From positions 24,824,651 to 24,888,650 of the forward strand of contig OX387603.1 of assembly GCA_947568835.1 (NCBI GenBank): DNA of 64,000 nucleotides, in the 5' to 3' direction. The notes beneath the pieces are model-generated. The model made no database searches and was not told the DNA's origin. It worked only from the letters and a program-made list of their open reading frames with translations. Both the position numbers and the translations under genes were made by a program. Below are positions 1-38,800 of the stretch, one piece after another; position 1 is the stretch's first letter, and every line of letters starts with the position of its first letter. The DNA comes from Protonemura montana. Taxonomy: Eukaryota > Arthropoda > Insecta > Plecoptera > Nemouridae.

Positions 1-472
1 TTTAAAAGCGGCCCTGTGAGAATAGAGGACTAGAAAAGCCTGGCTTAAAGATATGCTCCATAGACGTGCAAATTAAAACCCATCTGAGTTTCCACACAAA
101 TGGTGCTGGACATTGAATTTGGATATGGAACCGGACCGGCTATCAACAAAGTGGCTGGAGGCAGGGGATTTCGACGACACAACAGGAATCTGAAAGGAGC
201 TAAAAAAAAAAAAGTAGCTCGGGGGTACGAGAAATAAATTGCAGGTAATTAAGAAAATAAATATGTTTATTGGAACAAACTCGTATGATTACGAAATTCA
301 CAAACCAGTAAATACTAACTGTGATCAAACATTATTTAACTAACATGAAATATGGCACGTTTGATCGAGAATCAGCACTTACATAGTGATATCGTAACAG
401 AGTTTGTATACAAATTCGTATAAAAATATAAAATCTATAGGAAGCGAACACAGGGTGCTGACAGCAGTAGAA

Positions 473-1307
473 TTAGTAGGCGTAGGTGGCGTACGGCGAC
501 GAGAAGGTGGCCTTGCCATACGATCCGTGGGCGGCGACGGCAACCACGGGGGCGGCGTACTTAGCGACCACGGGGGCAGCACGGTAAACGGGGGCGGCGT
601 GGTAGACAGGCGCCGGGCGGTAGACGGGGGCGGCGTGGTAAGCCAGAGGGGCGGCGTATTTGGCGACCACAGGGGCGGCGACGATGGCCTTGGCGACTCC
701 AGCCTCACGGTGGACGACCGCGTTGAAACCGTTGTGGTCATCGGCGGTGTACTCGACAACGCGACGGCTGCCGTCGGCCTCGATCAGCGAGTACGAGCCG
801 CGGACGACGTCACCGTCGCGGGACTCTTCCTGGGTCTTCTGGTCGCCGGTGTGCGCGTCGTGGACGGCGTACGCAAAGTGGTACTGGGGGTGGGCGTCTA
901 CTTCGACGGTCTTCAACAAGGGGGTGGCATAGCCGAGGGGGGAGGCGCTGGCGGCGGCCACGAGGGCGAACAGGGCGAAGAGCTGTAGATGAAATCGCAA
1001 GGTTGTTAGCCTAAGCGCTATTAATAGCAGATATAACCAACGAACAATAGACATGTTTAAGAGTGCTCACTAAAAGCTTAAGGTACTTTAACTGAATCAT
1101 ACATTAAAATAAAAAATGCGAAATATTTTCAATCAAGCTAGACTGTTATTTAACGCTAAAAGGAAATTTGACTTCAGTGTCCTTATTATGAATATTTTTC
1201 TGGTAAACCCTCTTAGCCGGGATTTGTTGAGCTAAATGGCTGATGCGATTAACCGGGCACTTTTTGAATCGCAGTGTGATAACTGAACCATGTACCTTGA
1301 ATGCCAT
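473..1307 (-). CDS. CPR-1: RR-2 cuticular protein (173 aa), join(473..982, 1296..1307)
   Basis: Secreted structural protein of the cuticle, predicted to bind chitin fibres through its RR-2 domain. Exon 1 (1296-1307) codes M-A-F-K and ends at a GT donor. The 313-bp intron ends in CTACAG, and exon 2 (473-982) continues in phase 0. Residues 1-17 form a signal peptide ending ASASA/SP. The RR-2 domain spans about 31-95, starting E-V-D-A-H-P-Q-Y and holding TGD, DGDVV, the aromatic Y-S-L and E-Y-T-A-D, and closing G-F-N-A-V-V. The tail is AAPV/Y-rich and ends SSPYATYAY, a terminus shared with CPR-2 and CPR-3. A poly(A) signal (TTTATT on the plus strand) is at 266-271. The protein is identical to CPR-2. 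The long frame open on the opposite strand is a composition shadow. Confidence 0.93.
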
Positions 1308-3400: not shown

Positions 3401-3886
3401 GCTAGTGACCCGATTTTTAAAAGAAACCCTGTAAGAATGGGGGGCTATAAAAACCTGGCTTAAAGATAGTCTCCAAAGGCGTGCAAATTAAAATCCATCT
3501 GAGTTTCCACACAAATGGTACTGGACATTGAATTTGGATATGGAACCGGACCGGCTATCAACAAAGTGCCTGGAGGCAGGGGATTTCGACGACACAACAG
3601 GAATCTGAAAGGAGCTAAAAAAAAAGTAGCTCGGGGGTACGAGAAATAAATTGCAGGTAATTAAGAAAATAAATATATTTATTGAGGAACAAACTCGTTT
3701 GTTTACGATATTAACAAACCAGTAAATACTAACTGTGATCAAACATTATTTAACTAACATAATATCTGGCACGTTTGATCGAGAATCAGCACTTACATAG
3801 TGATATCGTAACAGAGTTTGTATACAAATTCGTATAAAAATATAAAATCTATAGGAAGCGAACACAGGGTGCTGACAGCAGTAGAA

Positions 3887-4706
3887 TTAGTAGGCGTAGG
3901 TGGCGTACGGCGACGAGAAGGTGGCCTTGCCATACGATCCGTGGGCGGCGACGGCGACCACGGGGGCGGCGTACTTAGCGACCACGGGGGCAGCACGGTA
4001 AACGGGGGCGGCGTGGTAGACAGGCGCTGGGCGGTAGACGGGGGCGGCGTGGTAAGCCAGAGGGGCGGCGTATTTGGCGACCACAGGGGCGGCGACGATG
4101 GCCTTGGCGACTCCAGCCTCACGGTGGACGACCGCGTTGAAACCGTTGTGGTCATCGGCGGTGTACTCGACAACGCGACGGCTGCCGTCGGCCTCGATCA
4201 GCGAGTACGAGCCGCGGACGACGTCACCGTCGCGGGACTCTTCCTGGGTCTTCTGGTCGCCGGTGTGCGCGTCGTGGACGGCGTACGCAAAGTGGTACTG
4301 GGGGTGGGCGTCTACTTCGACGGTCTTCAACAAGGGGGTGGCATAGCCGAGGGGGGAGGCGCTGGCGGCGGCCACGAGGGCGAACAGGGCGAAGAGCTGT
4401 AGATGAAATCGCAAGGTTGTTAGCCTAAGCGCTATTAATAGCAGATATAACCAACGAACAATATACATTTTTAAGAGTGCTCACTATAATCTAAAGGTAC
4501 TTTAACTGAATCATGCATTAAAATTAAAAATACAATCGACTTTCAATCAAGCTAGACTGTCCTTATCACGATTTTTTTCTGGTAAGCCCTCTCAGGTAAA
4601 CGTGAGTAAAGCAAGAAGGGATTTGTTCAGCTAAATGCCCGATGCAATTAACCGGGCACTTTTTGAATCCCAGTGTGATAACTGAACCATGTACCTTGAA
4701 AGCCAT
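3887..4706 (-). CDS. CPR-2: RR-2 cuticular protein (173 aa), join(3887..4396, 4695..4706)
   Basis: Tandem duplicate of CPR-1 with an identical predicted protein: signal peptide 1-17, RR-2 domain about 31-95, AAPVY-rich tail ending SSPYATYAY. Exon 1 (4695-4706) is M-A-F-K, using GCT for Ala where CPR-1 uses GCA. The intron is 298 bp, with the acceptor CTACAG directly before 4396. Exon 2 differs from CPR-1 at only two bases that I can find (3956 and 4028), both silent. A poly(A) signal (plus-strand TTTATT) lies near 3679. It is intact by every visible criterion and probably adds dosage of the same cuticle component. Confidence 0.93.
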
Positions 4707-4759
4707 TTCTGCGGAGTGCTGCGTGCTGTACTGTTGGCTTCTGGAAGACGGATTAATCC

Positions 4760-4799
4760 AAACTGATACTTTCTGCACTTGTCGCCCGGGTATTTATGT
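4760..4799 (-). promoter_or_regulatory. CPR-2 core promoter (TATA-like + initiator)
   Basis: Same design as CPR-1: ACATAAATAC at 4790-4799 and GTATCAGTTT at 4760-4769, both read on the minus strand. CACGTG recurs upstream at 4979-4984. Confidence 0.72.
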
Positions 4800-5214
4800 G
4801 TCTACGAGACGCTGGCAGACACCCGGTGCAGCGGGGCACCCGGGGCTGGCGTGGGGCAAACGGGGCACCGGTCGCCGGGTGCGGGAGAATTGGCACCGAC
4901 CCACCGTCCGGCTTCCCTCGCCGCCTTCCTCCGGCCACGGCGTTAACGCACTCGGAAAGTGAGAGATCGAGGCGTGACCACGTGCGATAGGTGCTAATTG
5001 AACTTGCAGTGTTATATCTGCAAGAGATATTAGGTCGGCAACCGACCAAACTTTTGAAGCTGGACCTAAATTTTCTATGGAACCATTATTCGTGTTTTTA
5101 TTTTAACCGAAAGTGGCCTTTTTTTCAGCGTTATTTTTTTTTAAGTGATTTAATCTGCCATCGATAAGTCGGGCGAAACTGGATAGGAAGTCAAAGTGGT
5201 TATATGCATGTTTG

Positions 5215-18414: not shown

Positions 18415-18850
18415 TCACAAGAATTATGCATTTTGTTAATTTGACCGCAAGCCTAATGGCCTCGGTGAATAAGTGGATGATGATGAGGATGATTTTGAAC
18501 CAAACCTTGCATAGAAAGGAGGAGGGGAAACCTACGCAAAATTTGGTTCATCATCATCCTGGCACGTAGCCTACTCCTGTCGAAGAGCACCAAGTAAACT
18601 ACCAGCTTCATGTCTCTTCTGAAGGACAGTACAACGCAAACAACAGGATTCCTCCAAAAATCCATACTGTAAAGAGGTTGATAAGCAAGGCGAATGACGT
18701 TGCTGCATTAACTTTCATCCCTCCAACCTCTCTCTCAAACAGAGCTGGTCATGTGTATGATAGTCACCCATCCAATACCTGACATAGCGCAGTGTTGCTT
18801 AACGTCATGCTTAACTCGCATGACAACCATCGTTTCCTACACGCAAAAGC
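18415..18850 (-). mobile_element. 5S rRNA-derived SINE (SINE3 type), diverged copy
   Basis: Read on the minus strand, the copy has a 5S-like head with the segment TATTGGATGGGTGAC (the 5S C-box region), a body matching the other two copies (CAACCTCT, AGGAATCCTG, GGTGCTCTTCG, GGGTTTCCCC-like) and a TCATCATC-rich tail. The first 40-50 bp of the head are badly diverged, and no target duplication is clear, so this is an old copy. The edges are approximate. Confidence 0.8.
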
Positions 18851-19043
18851 ATTCGGTGTTGAAGACGACACAGATTATAATTGCATCACTGTCTCCAGTA
18901 ACCTTGAAATTATCTTTCGACGCAGGGGCGGTCACATTTTGGGCAGCGAACGATTTAACGGGTCTGCTTTCTTCGCCGACTGCATCGGGGTCCGTGCCAG
19001 CGTCCGCCTTGGTATTGGAGGCACGGACGTGTCCTCTTCGCTG

Positions 19044-29639: not shown

Positions 29640-32600
29640 GTGTCCCATGTTTTTTTGGCTAATTGTAAATCAATCTTACCATTTTATACTTCCGCAAAGG
29701 ACCAAACGTCTTTTTTGGGTGACATTTAAACACCCAAATGACAAATTACATTCTCAATGCATGTAATTACATTACTTAATATGGACCAAAGACAAGAAAA
29801 TGAGCATAACGAGGAGGTATTTTAGACTGGGCAGCTTCGGCGGTCCAAAACTAAACCTCTCATTACTTGTTAGAGAGTAATTGCACTTGTTAAAATACCG
29901 GCCGACTATAAGGTTATATGTTAAGAAACGGTAGCCATATAGCGGACTGAATTTCCAATTAGGAATAAAGTTTAGAGGTAATTGGGAATGCTGTCTGCGG
30001 ACCGAACCAAGACTGCCTTATAAGACCTGCTCATGCTTTCTTAAGCCCACGCTCGCAGCTTGTCACTCTAGTTTCGGTATCTAGTTGGATCACTATGGAA
30101 AACAATGCAGTGCACATGGAGCTGCAATTGCTACTGCATAGGTATGTTCTGCCCGCGGAAGTCGATTGCTGGCCGATATGTGAGATTAACGAACGTTCAC
30201 TTTCTGCTACTTGCAATGCGGAGAGCAGTAATTGAAATCTCTCCTCTTATCTTACGATCTTATCCCGAAATTGCGATCGCTTCTCTATCAGGAAAAATTA
30301 GGTCAAACTGCAGCCCGTGAATGCTCGCAAAACAATAGAGAACGTTTGGCATAAGAAAACAATAATTATGTGCACGGTTTTTCATTTCAACTGCCATCGT
30401 ACAATTGAATCGCCGGTCAGCGGTGCAATTAATGCTCCAGCTTTTGTTAATTGGCCAGATTACCTTCGAGTTGGCGAGCAAGGCGAGGCGGCTAGACAAT
30501 ATGTCTCCAAAAAAAGTGCCCAGACGCAGTCGGATCGAGAACGGCGTACCAAAATGAGACAATGATTGCACTTAGTTTTTTGCTGCATCATGGCGAATGT
30601 GCAGCTGCCCTATTTGGCATGCACTGCACCAGCTCAAAGTCACCTCTGAAATACGACTTTCTGGCAAATCCAAAACACGTAGGAATCATTTGCGTGGAAT
30701 TGAGAATCCATAGGGAAACCACGGTTCTACCCCAAACGAAACTCAACCGCAAACGCAAGCAAGAAACGGTAACATTACTACCCTATGTATGAAGAAAGAC
30801 ATCGATAAAAAGGTACTACCGAACGGTTTGGCGTATTGGAAAAACCGGTTCTCATGAGATCACCGAAATTAAGCAAAACTGCGCTGAGTCCGGTATTGGA
30901 TGGGTGACCATCATACACATGACCAGTTCTGTTCGGGAGAAAGGCTGGAGGGATAAAAGTTATTACAGCAAAATTACCCGCCTTGCTTATCAACCTCTCG
31001 ACAGCATGGATTTGTGGAGGAATCCTGCTGTTTGAGTTGTAGCGTCCTTCGAAAGGGACGTTAAGCCGGTGGTTCCCTTGGTGCTCTTCGATAGTAGTAG
31101 CAACGGTATGTAGGCTACGTGCCGGCATCGGGTTTCCCCTCCTCCCTTCTAGGCTAGATTAGGTTCATCATCCTCATCATCATCATCTACTCATTCACCG
31201 ACGCCATCAGACCAGTGCCGCACGGCCATATGTCAAAACAATGCGTCGTTAAACACCACAAATAAATATAAAGAAAGAAAGGTACTACGAATAGGTGGTG
31301 CAGAAGCAGGTTTCAGCAATAAACCATAAAATACGCAGCTCCAACTCAATGGGCACCATTTAAAATCGACATTATAACTCAATTACAAATCATGGATATG
31401 TCGGCAACAACAAATCAAACTTCTAAATGTTTCTCTTGCCTCACAAAATGATACAAAGTGTGTAATGAACACGGAGAGCGAGCATTATTGTTGCGATATC
31501 GGAGCTCGAAAGATTTACAGACACTCAGATGCGAGTCGAGGTCAGAGGTCATGTTTTACAGATCTCGCTGCAAAGATAACGCACGCGTTTATTGGTGAGT
31601 TAGGGATAGGTACACACTACACAGCAATCAATAAGACAATTGCACAAACCAACACTTTTACTCTCCCGCAGTGCAATTGTGTTCGCATTCGCTGGATCGA
31701 AATGAGATAGACCGCGACATGTTGCCGCGACAGGAGGCTGAAAACGAGTGAAACAAAAGCCAAGGCGGCTTGTGATCCATTGAAAAGCGAACACGTCGGG
31801 TGTAATCTGAATAAAGTGTGCAACGCGATTTGAAATGTCGTCGCAGATTCGAACGTCTGCATGGCGGGCGGTTCCCAGCAGCGCAAGAATTGAAGGTAAC
31901 GAGGTATGACAGTTGAATGCTTTTTGACACGACGCTAGGTGTCGAATGTGTAGCAAGCGGCTCGGGGAGTGAGTCAAGACCACTCTGCGATGACGACTTC
32001 ATTACCTGAATGACCGCGCGAGAATGACCGGCGTGAATTTGCGCCGGCATTCAAATCACCCGAAGTAAAAGTGGCCTTAGAGGTTGCGCCCGCAGCAGCC
32101 GCAAGACAATCCATGATTAATAACTAATGACACGCCACAATATCGGATAATTGTAATGGGGCTGCTGTTTTTTTTATAAAGCTATCATTCCTGGAATTGG
32201 AAAAACGGTTCGATCTCATGGTTATGTACATTCTTTAAGAGACTATCGGCTAACGGGGAATTACCCTTTCCCTTATTGTAATTATCGTGTTAGCACGGCA
32301 ATGGAGTAAAAAGTCTTTTTCTTAGAATCTAACTGTTCGCTAATGCGCTCACTAAAAGGCCACGAAAGTAAAATGCATGTAATTAACGAATAGTTAAGGA
32401 GGAACGCATCGCGTGGTGTCCATTTTCCCAAACGAATGTTATATTGAATGTAATGTGTGAGGTGTTCAATTAACCCACGAACGTACCAACCTGTAAATGA
32501 AATAAAGTCAAACCCCGCAATTAAACGATCAAAATCGATCGTTTAAAGTTAATATTAAGCTACTCTCTCATCAATTAGCCCAAAAAATCGATCAGGAAAT

Positions 32601-35829: not shown

Positions 35830-38800
35830 GAAAATGTTGCTGTCTTTTCGTTGTATTTCCTCGAGGTGAACCGTCCTGGCTCGACCCAATCCTCGAAACT
35901 AGGAGCGCTCCAAGTATCCAATGGTAGTGACCGGTGCTGGTAATCGGTGGCCGATTGTTGTAGCTGTGCTCGGCACGGCGCCTCCACCTCGCGTGGAAAG
36001 CTTGCAGAAAGCGACGCCGCACGGTGTAAAGCGGCACGGTACAAGCGCGTTCCTCAAGACTTGCTCTCAAACCGAACATGCATCGCAACGCATGACTTTC
36101 ATAAGACACATGTGATTTAGCGACATCTTATGGCAGGTTTTAACGACAAAAAAGACCAGAAAAACACATAATTAAGTCACTTTTATTCCATCGCAGAGTG
36201 GCAGCTATATTTGTTTCAAGGCGGCGCGAAAAATACTATTGTGAGGTTTTTTCCCCATTTTGCAAACTTTGCAATCGACGAGACATCTTCTTTTAAATGA
36301 AGTTTGTCACTTCCGTCTGCATTTAGTTATTGCATGGCAGTTCATTGCATCGACTAAACCAAACGATTTGGTTTTGCGACATTTTGCTAAGAAGATCTAT
36401 GAATAACAAATAGGGTCCTACAAGTTTCGATCGCAGGGACAATTCGTCTCCACTTTTTGGTGGTTAGAAGGTCGTACATGACAAATCTTAAGAATCACAG
36501 ACCACTTGGACCTTTGTATCATTTGCAAACATTTCTACAGAGTTGATTGATTTGTGGTGTTTAACGACGCACTGTTTTGACAACTGGCCCTGCGGCACTG
36601 GTCTAATGGCGTCGGTGAGTGAGTGAGTGATGATGATGATGATGAACCTAACCTAGCCTAGAAGGGAGGAGGGGAAACCCGGTGCCGGCACGTAGACTAC
36701 TCCTGTCGAAGAGCACCAAGGGGACCACCTGCTTAACGTCCCTTCCGAAGGACGGTACAACGCGAACAACAGGATTCCTTCACAAATCTATGCTGTCGAG
36801 AGGTTGATAAGCAAGGCGAATTAAGTTGCTGTACCAACTTCCATCCCTCCAACCTCTCTCCCGAACAGAACTGGTCATGTGTATGATGGTCACCCATCCA
36901 ATACCTGACTCAGCGCAGTGTTGCTTTACGTCGGTGATCTCACGAGAACCGGTGTTTCCAACCCGCCATACCGTTCAGTGTCTACAGAGATACTAGCGCT
37001 TCTCAACGCAATTTGAACTGCATTTTAGATGAGCGTATTTTATTTTGTTTTTTATTCCTTTACATTTTCTTTGTAAACGAATACCCTGCATCCTTCTCTC
37101 GGAATTTTCTGCTGATTGAATTTACGTTCAAATTTGTGGAAACGTTGACATGAAAATTTTAATAGAACAATGATAACTTTTCACAAAATTTGAAAATATT
37201 TAATTGGCAATGAAAGTATCTATATCTGCAAATTTCAACAACAATGTGTATGTATGCTTCGCTTAAGTGCTTCGCTCATTAATGATCATTTTCTGAACTC
37301 CGTGTAGCTTTTTAATTCTTAGATACCTGCAGTGGTCGCACATAAACACGTTCACCAACTTGACCAGTGTGACATTTTTTTTCCTTTTCCCATTGCAAGA
37401 AATTCAGCGGATGGTCAAACGGGTATCAACAATCCGTTTTCAACGTAGGCTGTTTCTACATAGTTTCCTATGACAACCGAACGAACTCAATTAACTGCAT
37501 GCATACACTTCTGAGAAAAAGGTAGGCAAGTCACAGCGAAATGCATCTAAGAATGCAGCTGTCAGATGGCCGCCGAAACCGCAAGTTCAAGTACTGCAAG
37601 TGCAAGTTCTCGTTGCCGCAATCGCTGGGAGCAAGAGTCCACCACCTCTGCGATCTACCACAAGCGCAAAGATGTCGCCGCCCGTACCGAAACGTGTTCC
37701 TATGGAATGGAGGAACTGACAGATGCTGTAGAAAGTGAGGTTATCTTGAACAATTCGTGTACGTAATTTTCCCTTCTTTCATCGTCCAAGGGCGTCGGTA
37801 ATCATGCGACGACATTGACCTAAACATCCAACCCGACTGGCTAAGACGTGCCGCGTACCCGTGAGGTGGACAGCGTCGGTCGAAGAGAGGATTGCGTCTT
37901 AGGAAACGCGTGACACGCACGAACACGCACTTTTCGCACTGCGTTGGGACGTGAGGACGGATCTACTTCATGTTCGATCGAGCGCTGGCTTGGCCAGAGA
38001 TTGGACACCGAATAGCTACACGCTAAATTACGATCGTTATTACATGCTCAATTCCGTGGCCTTACCCAAGGTGTTTTGAAGAGTGGAATCCTATTAAACA
38101 TCAATTACCGAAATTTTATTTATAAGGAATAAAGTTATATCTCAATGCCTAAGTGTTTTACAATGGAACGTAGCCTCCAGTGCATTCATATCTCAAGCGT
38201 TCAATCTACATAATAAATTTTTAATTAAGGTGGCCTATTTTCCAGCTGCTTTCTGCACTCACGAGGTTCGAGGCAAGAATCAAAATTATTTGGGGACATG
38301 CGATCATTGTGAGTGGTCAAAGTCCAAAATATTTCGCCCCCTTCTCGTCAAAATGGCGAAATACACTCAAAAAGTCCCAAAAAGTAATCGTTTTTAGCCA
38401 GTGATGTTTCGAGCTGAAGTTCTGATGTAAATCTCCCCCATTCCGTGGTAGATAGCCATCGGGGCGGGCTGCCAGTAATCCTCGAAACCCGAAACCTTCG
38501 CGTGGTCACAACGCGTCGCCCGCGCGCCCGAAATTCACAGATAATTTACAAGGGGCAGGCGCAATTAAAAAGTTGTGTGAACTTGGCACTGTTTTTTTTG
38601 CGCGCTCCGTCGACGCGCTAGCGAGCTCGCGAGTCGTTTGCCCCAATTCAGGACTGTACAAAAGTTGCGCGGCGGTGTGGAAAATAAAGCAAGTCATGGC
38701 GTAGGTGCACTAAAGAAGTTTGACAAGGTAATGCTCTTATGCCAAGAGGAGTACGTTAGCTTTCGCAAACAAAGGGTTATGGGGACAAAGCGTTATGCCC

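Follow-up and report, generated by a model that had tools for sequence, protein, structure and literature searches.

Three 5S-headed elements among cuticle-protein genes

The window, that is, the whole stretch of DNA analysed (64,000 bases), corresponds to C2:24824651-24888650 in an assembly of 258,480,905 bases and 34 contigs; C1, C2 and C11 denote contigs of this assembly, and L-numbers denote loci taken from it. The neighbouring genes encode cuticle proteins, and all three window proteins tested match Pfam Chitin_bind_4; of the "insect gene cluster" in the earlier note, the nearby cuticle-protein genes stand, while the Chitin_bind_4 matches indicate an arthropod only. A direct duplication with a spacing of ~3.4 kb (window 1-927 / 3416-4341, and also 1219-1518 / 4618-4917) carries a cuticle-protein gene, and the long pieces compared are 92-99% identical. 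The SINE copies of the window have one unit each, and their features are the following.

30809..30817, plus strand: 5' target-site duplication of copy 1, AAAGGTACT
30818..31277, plus strand: SINE copy 1, full length, one unit (Rfam match, H-U-B-T parse, target duplications)
30818..30865, plus strand: segment H of copy 1, first 48 positions of the 5S-like head, aligned to Rfam model position 1
30866..30956, plus strand: segment U of copy 1, 91 bp, with the 5S boxes A, IE and C and a downstream stretch; multiplied in other copies
30957..31163, plus strand: segment B of copy 1, the body, from the segment parse
31164..31277, plus strand: segment T of copy 1, a TCATC-rich stretch, the tail with a possible GACGC..GCGTC stem, and an AT-rich 3' end
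31278..31286, plus strand: 3' target-site duplication of copy 1, AAAGGTACT
36981..36989, minus strand: 5' target-site duplication of copy 2, CTCTGTAGA
36543..36979, minus strand: SINE copy 2, full length, one unit (Rfam match, segment parse)
36534..36542, minus strand: 3' target-site duplication of copy 2, CTCTGTAGA
about 18453..18857, minus strand: SINE copy 3, decayed, one unit (BLAST, 78% to copy 1)

Regarding the heads, the Rfam 15 model RF00001 (5S rRNA; gathering cut-off 38 bits) matches copy 1 at 30818-30938 on the plus strand (53.8 bits, E 1.9e-8 for the window) and copy 2 at 36979-36859 on the minus strand (57.0 bits, E 2.7e-9 for the window), both matches spanning the whole model, positions 1-120; copy 3 lies below the gathering score, and 5S was called in two of the three copies. 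In a BLAST comparison of copy 1 with the window (E up to 1e-3), copy 2 aligned at 86% over 450 columns and copy 3 at 78% over 405, and no copies beyond these two were found. The host 5S gene, represented by the one 119-base sequence that 28 of 30 Rfam loci of the assembly have in either orientation, aligned to the three heads with 81%, 77% and 70% identity over 75, 74 and 79 columns (E-values of 3e-17, 3e-14 and 1e-8), a similarity far above chance. The three related 5S-headed copies proposed in the earlier note are therefore confirmed by Rfam (two of three), by BLAST, and by alignment to the host 5S (three of three). The promoter motifs that it had quoted, in order, for the heads are exact in copy 1; copy 2 differs, with GATCACCGACGTAAAGC instead, and those of copy 3 have decayed to GGTTGTC, GACGTTAAGC and GGATGGGTGACT. 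As for the two copies said to have clean target duplications, these are copies 1 and 2, with two more bases at copy 1 shared with the element start; none was found in the flanks of copy 3, whose 3' end is hard to follow. The Rfam match of the head, its alignment to the host 5S, and the duplications at both ends bear out the SINE3-type reading, and this family identity is certain for practical purposes.

A single-unit copy consists of H (48 bp), U (91 bp), B (~190 bp) and T (~110 bp), and its 3' end is an AT-rich simple repeat; transcription is expected, as in 5S genes, to start at the first base of H. Boxes A, IE and C, whose exact limits in U are those we presume, stand in this order along the sequence of the head. 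Their names follow the usage for other 5S SINEs (PMC8010984). The terminal 80 bases of the tail give a hairpin with GACGC/GCGTC as its closing stem, which folds slightly better than shuffled sequences (z -1.85; 7 of 200 shuffles as good). Hairpins of this kind are frequent in tails that LINEs recognise.

Family size and tandem arrays of the promoter unit

The family is present in thousands of copies in this arthropod genome of about 258 Mb. With copy 1 as query, 7,782 first-look candidates were obtained from the genome, the best 40 of which were scored; the exact tail 18-mer occurs 2,983 times genome-wide, the exact head-unit joint 4,191 times (some within the 92-bp arrays described below), the exact unit-body joint 5,067 times and the exact unit-unit joint 17,298 times, all reversed controls giving 0, and these exact-pattern counts are lower bounds that depend on divergence. 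The unit-unit and unit-body patterns are equal in length (20 bases), and there are ~3.4 of the former per one of the latter; the 91-bp units behind the joint count make up at least 1.57 Mb, or 0.6% of the assembly (17,298 x 91). An exact 34-mer of the unit had 0 matches in the collections genome_contigs and viral_contigs. The genome-wide search suggested earlier thus yielded a large family, and also tandem promoter arrays that were not visible from the three single-unit copies of the window.

Since the DNA search lists about the best 40 matches, copies sampled with copy 1 or with the tail lean toward the query. Thirteen of the 30 tail-seeded loci, the window copy being among the 30, have a seed element with at least two tandem 91-bp units, and each unit holds boxes A, IE and C; L035 reaches 14 units. 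In two arrays whose letters were inspected, the internal joints are, substitutions aside, GGATGA followed by AAGTTAAGC, and GGATGAAAGTTAGTACAGC comes after the last unit. The hexamer AAGTTA opens the unit (AAGTTAAGCAAC) and, 91 bp away, also the body (AAGTTAGTACAGCAAC), which makes it a plausible seat of the first duplication. On C1, the first 100 unit-unit joints (62-2,299 kb) form 27 groups. Measured by the spacing of exact joints, interiors not read, the smallest group spans 1 unit and the largest at least about 32; the latter has an exact tail at C1:989870, is still array at 993700, and has its 5' end beyond the region read.

A second tandem type joins H1-H48 to U1-U44, head to tail at 92 bp, with 805 exact joints (example L107, C1:1225110-1225340), and at L101 one 92-bp unit is followed by a second head leading into the 91-bp type. 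At L099 (C1:276745-277000), the 15-bp CATCATACACATGAC is repeated many times inside a unit, forming a nested minisatellite.

Target duplications, unit variants and the origin of the arrays

Two origins of the 91-bp arrays were weighed: either the units were already in tandem in the RNA that was inserted, or the element is an ordinary SINE and its arrays are SINE-derived satellites that grew after insertion, through unequal exchange or slippage, array retrotransposition being rare. Among the 61 parsed elements with body and tail, 59 had enough flank for a duplication test; exact target duplications of at least 8 bp occur in 27 of the 59 vs 0.7% of 1,155 shuffled pairings, and those of at least 10 bp in 22 of the 59 vs 0 of 1,155. 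By group, exact duplications of at least 8 bp were found in 14/18 youngest single-unit copies, 8/18 other single-unit copies, 2/8 truncated copies and 3/13 arrays (L043, L040, L030). The small number of array copies with long exact duplications favours growth after insertion, and part of the arrays may be rebuilt at the 5' side.

The search was extended to all 16 of the 27 C1 joint groups that lack an exact head-unit joint, for which the 5' sides were taken, together with the 3' regions for 10; L112 has no recognisable tail, L094 and L092/L116 run past the 5' piece, and the other seven, with both ends readable, were judged. A duplication is present in three of them (L093, L103 and L106), and at L097, L100, L104 and L105, with both ends read, none was seen beyond about 7 bp. 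Five arrays in all have exact duplications, of 8-14 bp, and two of the five start inside a unit. The first of these two, C1:489500-490790 (L093), has a perfect 14-bp duplication, AAACACTGGACTCC, starts at about U53, and extends over seven unit lengths (490396-489759 = 7 x 91), with six exact unit-unit joints before the exact unit-body joint, interior not read; the second, L030, starts at U56 and has 3 full units and a duplication of 8/8 (9 including the base shared with the element start). The remaining three are L043 (6 units, 11/11), L040 (2 units, 8/8) and L106/L114 (five units by spacing, 9/9, TTGAAATCC on both sides); inexact duplications flank L103/L113 (2 units, 11/12) and L035 (14 units, 9/10).

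A 5' truncation inside a unit, combined with an intact downstream joint and a duplication, means that the joint was present in the insertion template; growth after insertion does not account for such copies (that with the 14-bp duplication, and L030), which need the joint in the inserted cDNA. The passage of unit-unit joints through RNA is therefore well supported, and many relatives appear to have jumped with at least some tandem units already in place; at any single locus, the remaining units may still have been added later.

Other arrangements were met at the insertion sites. At L050, the flanks of a SINE copy (1258-1637) have a 30-base exact match, far longer than the usual duplication; L026:1210-1774 holds a SINE copy and then a second tail without body. 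Inverted SINE heads lie beside SINE copies at L031 (about 1497-1940), L091 and L115, as if by 5' inversion at insertion or through a preferred neighbour site.

The unit variants bear on the same question. In 67 complete units from 14 arrays, the distance is 3.6% within and 6.0% between arrays, and adjacent units are no more alike than others (3.7% vs 3.5%). Unit position 22 is A in 30 units and G in 35, and both occur inside 8 of the 14 arrays, indicating a standing variation shared across different arrays that is not expected if each array grew independently from one unit. Local amplification also occurs, as indicated by private variants spread through single arrays (one base in 6/6 units of L034, two in 6/8 units of L023), and on this point the satellite explanation gains.

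With regard to age, the median divergence of body and tail from the group consensus is 1.35% for single-unit copies that have A at unit position 34 (n=18), 2.9% for arrays (n=14), 4.3% for truncated copies (n=9) and 4.4% for the other single-unit copies (n=18), only the order being meaningful because the copies are best matches. Copies of the youngest subfamily have a single unit, which means that activity does not require arrays; members of this subfamily (e.g. L004, L010, L011, L012, L014, L016, L017) have GAATGGG in box C and mostly a (TAA)n 3' end. As for the promoter, the 5S part of the 67 array units (U1-44 without position 22) is 2.0% off the reference unit and the rest 3.5%, an order that 3.9% of bootstrap resamples over arrays reverse; in 35 single-unit copies the 5S part is at 4.3% vs 3.5% for the rest (box A 5.9%, box C 5.5%), partly because 18 of the 35 have the common box C change from GGATGGG to GAATGGG. 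Judged by these substitutions, the arrays give a hint that the boxes are conserved, and the single-unit copies give none.

Position was analysed on C1. Among elements with exact head-unit and unit-body joints, arrays number 7/10 below 2.4 Mb and 2/18 at 2.4-23 Mb (one of the 18, with spacing 58, counted as neither array nor single), and 9 of 11 loci with 92-bp joints, grouped by hand from the joint list, are in the outer 5 Mb at either end (binomial 6e-4); both distributions suit satellites grown in place. However, the first 5 Mb of C1 are also richer in SINE tails as such, by a factor of 1.7 (5.4 vs 3.2 per Mb), and unit-unit joints reach 67 per Mb genome-wide vs 45 per Mb at the C1 start (100 in 2.24 Mb), which argues against a simple end effect and indicates that arrays are not confined there. 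On balance, growth of the arrays essentially after insertion is possible but rather unlikely.

Two further explanations are very improbable. In one of them there is no SINE, and the head, a pseudogene of 5S or a satellite of 5S origin, came to lie beside an unrelated repeat; this would suit the head-only 92-bp arrays (805 exact joints, L107 among them), but it is already contradicted by the dispersed copies, in which H, U, B and T keep a fixed order between flanking target duplications. That the copies are fragments of a larger element, a reading the earlier note had kept in view, for example an LTR-type miniature with a 5S promoter such as Cassandra or Ajax, which do carry 5S boxes (PMC10886601), is contradicted by duplications mostly of 8-14 bp (5 bp in Ajax, as described there) directly outside head and tail, and by single-unit copies without a second 5S-bearing terminal repeat.

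Proposed mechanism, related systems and significance

The explanation as a whole, a 5S-headed SINE with a lineage of RNA-borne promoter-unit arrays, is highly probable; its basis in sequence comprises the anatomy, copy numbers, joints, target duplications, truncation inside arrays and shared variants. RNA polymerase III would presumably transcribe the element, with the three 5S boxes of U as promoter, and the target-primed machinery of a LINE recognising T would copy it. One lineage multiplied U in tandem; this probably began with a jump between the AAGTTA that opens U and the one that opens the body, 91 bp downstream. RNAs with unit-unit joints were then reverse-transcribed and inserted with these joints in place, in some cases with loss of 5' sequence. 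The number of units also changes within the DNA of single arrays, which on C1 is seen more often close to the end of the chromosome, with recombination as the presumed local expander.

The partner LINE that the earlier note had hoped to recognise by a matching tail was not found among the reverse-transcriptase (RT) loci and LINE 3' regions compared. The partner would be expected to carry GTGCGTCGTTAAACACCA with an AT-rich repeat at its 3' end. Ten RT loci (L081-L090, several near-identical, mostly on C11) had no tail within 1.5-kb flanks, which may fall short of the LINE 3' end, the best match being a 35-base TCATC-like stretch in L081 (E 0.013); nor did the likely 3' regions of two further LINE families (L119, L120), whose reach to the LINE end is uncertain. 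Of the 150 scored RT hits, three are on C1. No exact tail follows any of these three within 8 kb, the nearest on the same strand lying 8,070, 216,257 and 483,615 bases downstream. Finally, no candidate LINE was among the 40 places listed in a tail-seeded search; SINE sequence is present in all 30 of those examined as loci.

On C11, the stretch C11:70-105743 (L054-L080) contains 5S genes at regular spacing; over its first 50 kb there are three per ~9.5 kb, with both orientations represented. Histone mRNA 3' stem-loops are present in L055 and L073, and the end of L081 reads by eye as a histone gene; the 5S genes thus appear to be linked to a histone cluster. Many of the best RT matches of the genome lie close to these 5S and histone genes, within the first megabase of C11 (L081 at C11:54367-55119, and others up to about 932 kb), and may point to LINEs targeting this region.

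In the papers on 5S SINEs, the retroposed 5S promoter is proposed to be silent or weak and dependent on upstream signals (PMC3272025, PMC8010984). Each promoter within an array has a constant upstream neighbour, so this proposal becomes testable here. It is doubtful that the array is a functional promoter battery, in which each unit would attract TFIIIA as well as polymerase III, with transcription beginning within the unit before it. If it were, the element would bring its own upstream context and escape the upstream dependence of the 5S type, different unit starts together with slippage at AAGTTA would shorten or lengthen arrays between jumps, and the array would be a polymerase III counterpart of the LINE-1 promoter monomers. 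Internal starts 48 bp upstream of box A, which predict 5' ends near U44 of the preceding unit, were not convincing: 4 of the 17 ends inside U are at U40-U48 (binomial 0.08; read by hand), a count without L096, L097 and L104, which start at about H44-H47, and without body-starting copies, and one of the copies in these data, L031a, adjoins an inverted fragment.

Several known systems resemble the present one in part. The 5' UTR of mouse LINE-1 has variable tandem promoter monomers at the 5' end of a non-LTR element; the likeness lies in these variable tandem 5' promoter units, but those of LINE-1 are a polymerase II promoter in an autonomous element. Tandem arrays of Cassandra have reportedly been seen as well, and concern LTR elements. 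Both Cassandra and Ajax use 5S boxes as the promoter of a mobile element (PMC10886601), as here, but they have LTRs and the present family has none.

As for SINEs with a 5S head, those described in insects include HaSE3, PxSE4, PxSE5, LaSE2 and CsSE2 (PMC3272025, PMC8010984), and SINE3-1_TC of Tribolium, as cited in PMC3272025; a table of the Plutella paper gives 532 to 4,415 copies for four such families (PMC8010984). The earlier argument from rarity in insects to an undescribed family is not supported, given these elements in Helicoverpa, Plutella, other moths and Tribolium, and the type is not new for arthropods. The comparison with the insect families was by description, not letter by letter: like the moth elements, the present one begins with a head of 5S origin that holds boxes A, IE and C, and ends in a simple repeat, but the 3' repeats of the moth elements, where given, are (TGA)n or (ATGT)n and differ from those found here, and the word "tandem" is absent from the main texts of PMC3272025 and PMC8010984. 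In the parts of the open-licence literature covered, no report was found of a 5S-headed SINE with tandem promoter units or of RNA-borne 5S promoter arrays.

The closest parallel among satellites is that of the squamate SINE-derived satellites sSat1-3, arrays of SINE-derived units adjoined by a SINE end, which reach up to thousands of loci per genome and prefer subtelomeric positions (PMC10702118, a study cited in a 2025 review). In both cases the tandem unit is a portion of a SINE and a SINE end adjoins the array; however, the squamate source SINEs are tRNA-derived, with a unit that includes box B in snakes and lies in the body in anole, and usually one SINE end is described beside the array (PMC10702118), whereas the present unit has all three 5S boxes, its arrays often have both ends, and its joints travelled through RNA. 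For squamates, the authors attribute the first duplication to unequal homologous recombination and leave open whether such satellites exist outside this group (PMC10702118). On that point, SINE-derived tandem repeats are shown here outside squamates; moreover, two repeat classes that are usually kept apart are joined in this family, in which tandem arrays appear to be seeded through retrotransposition.
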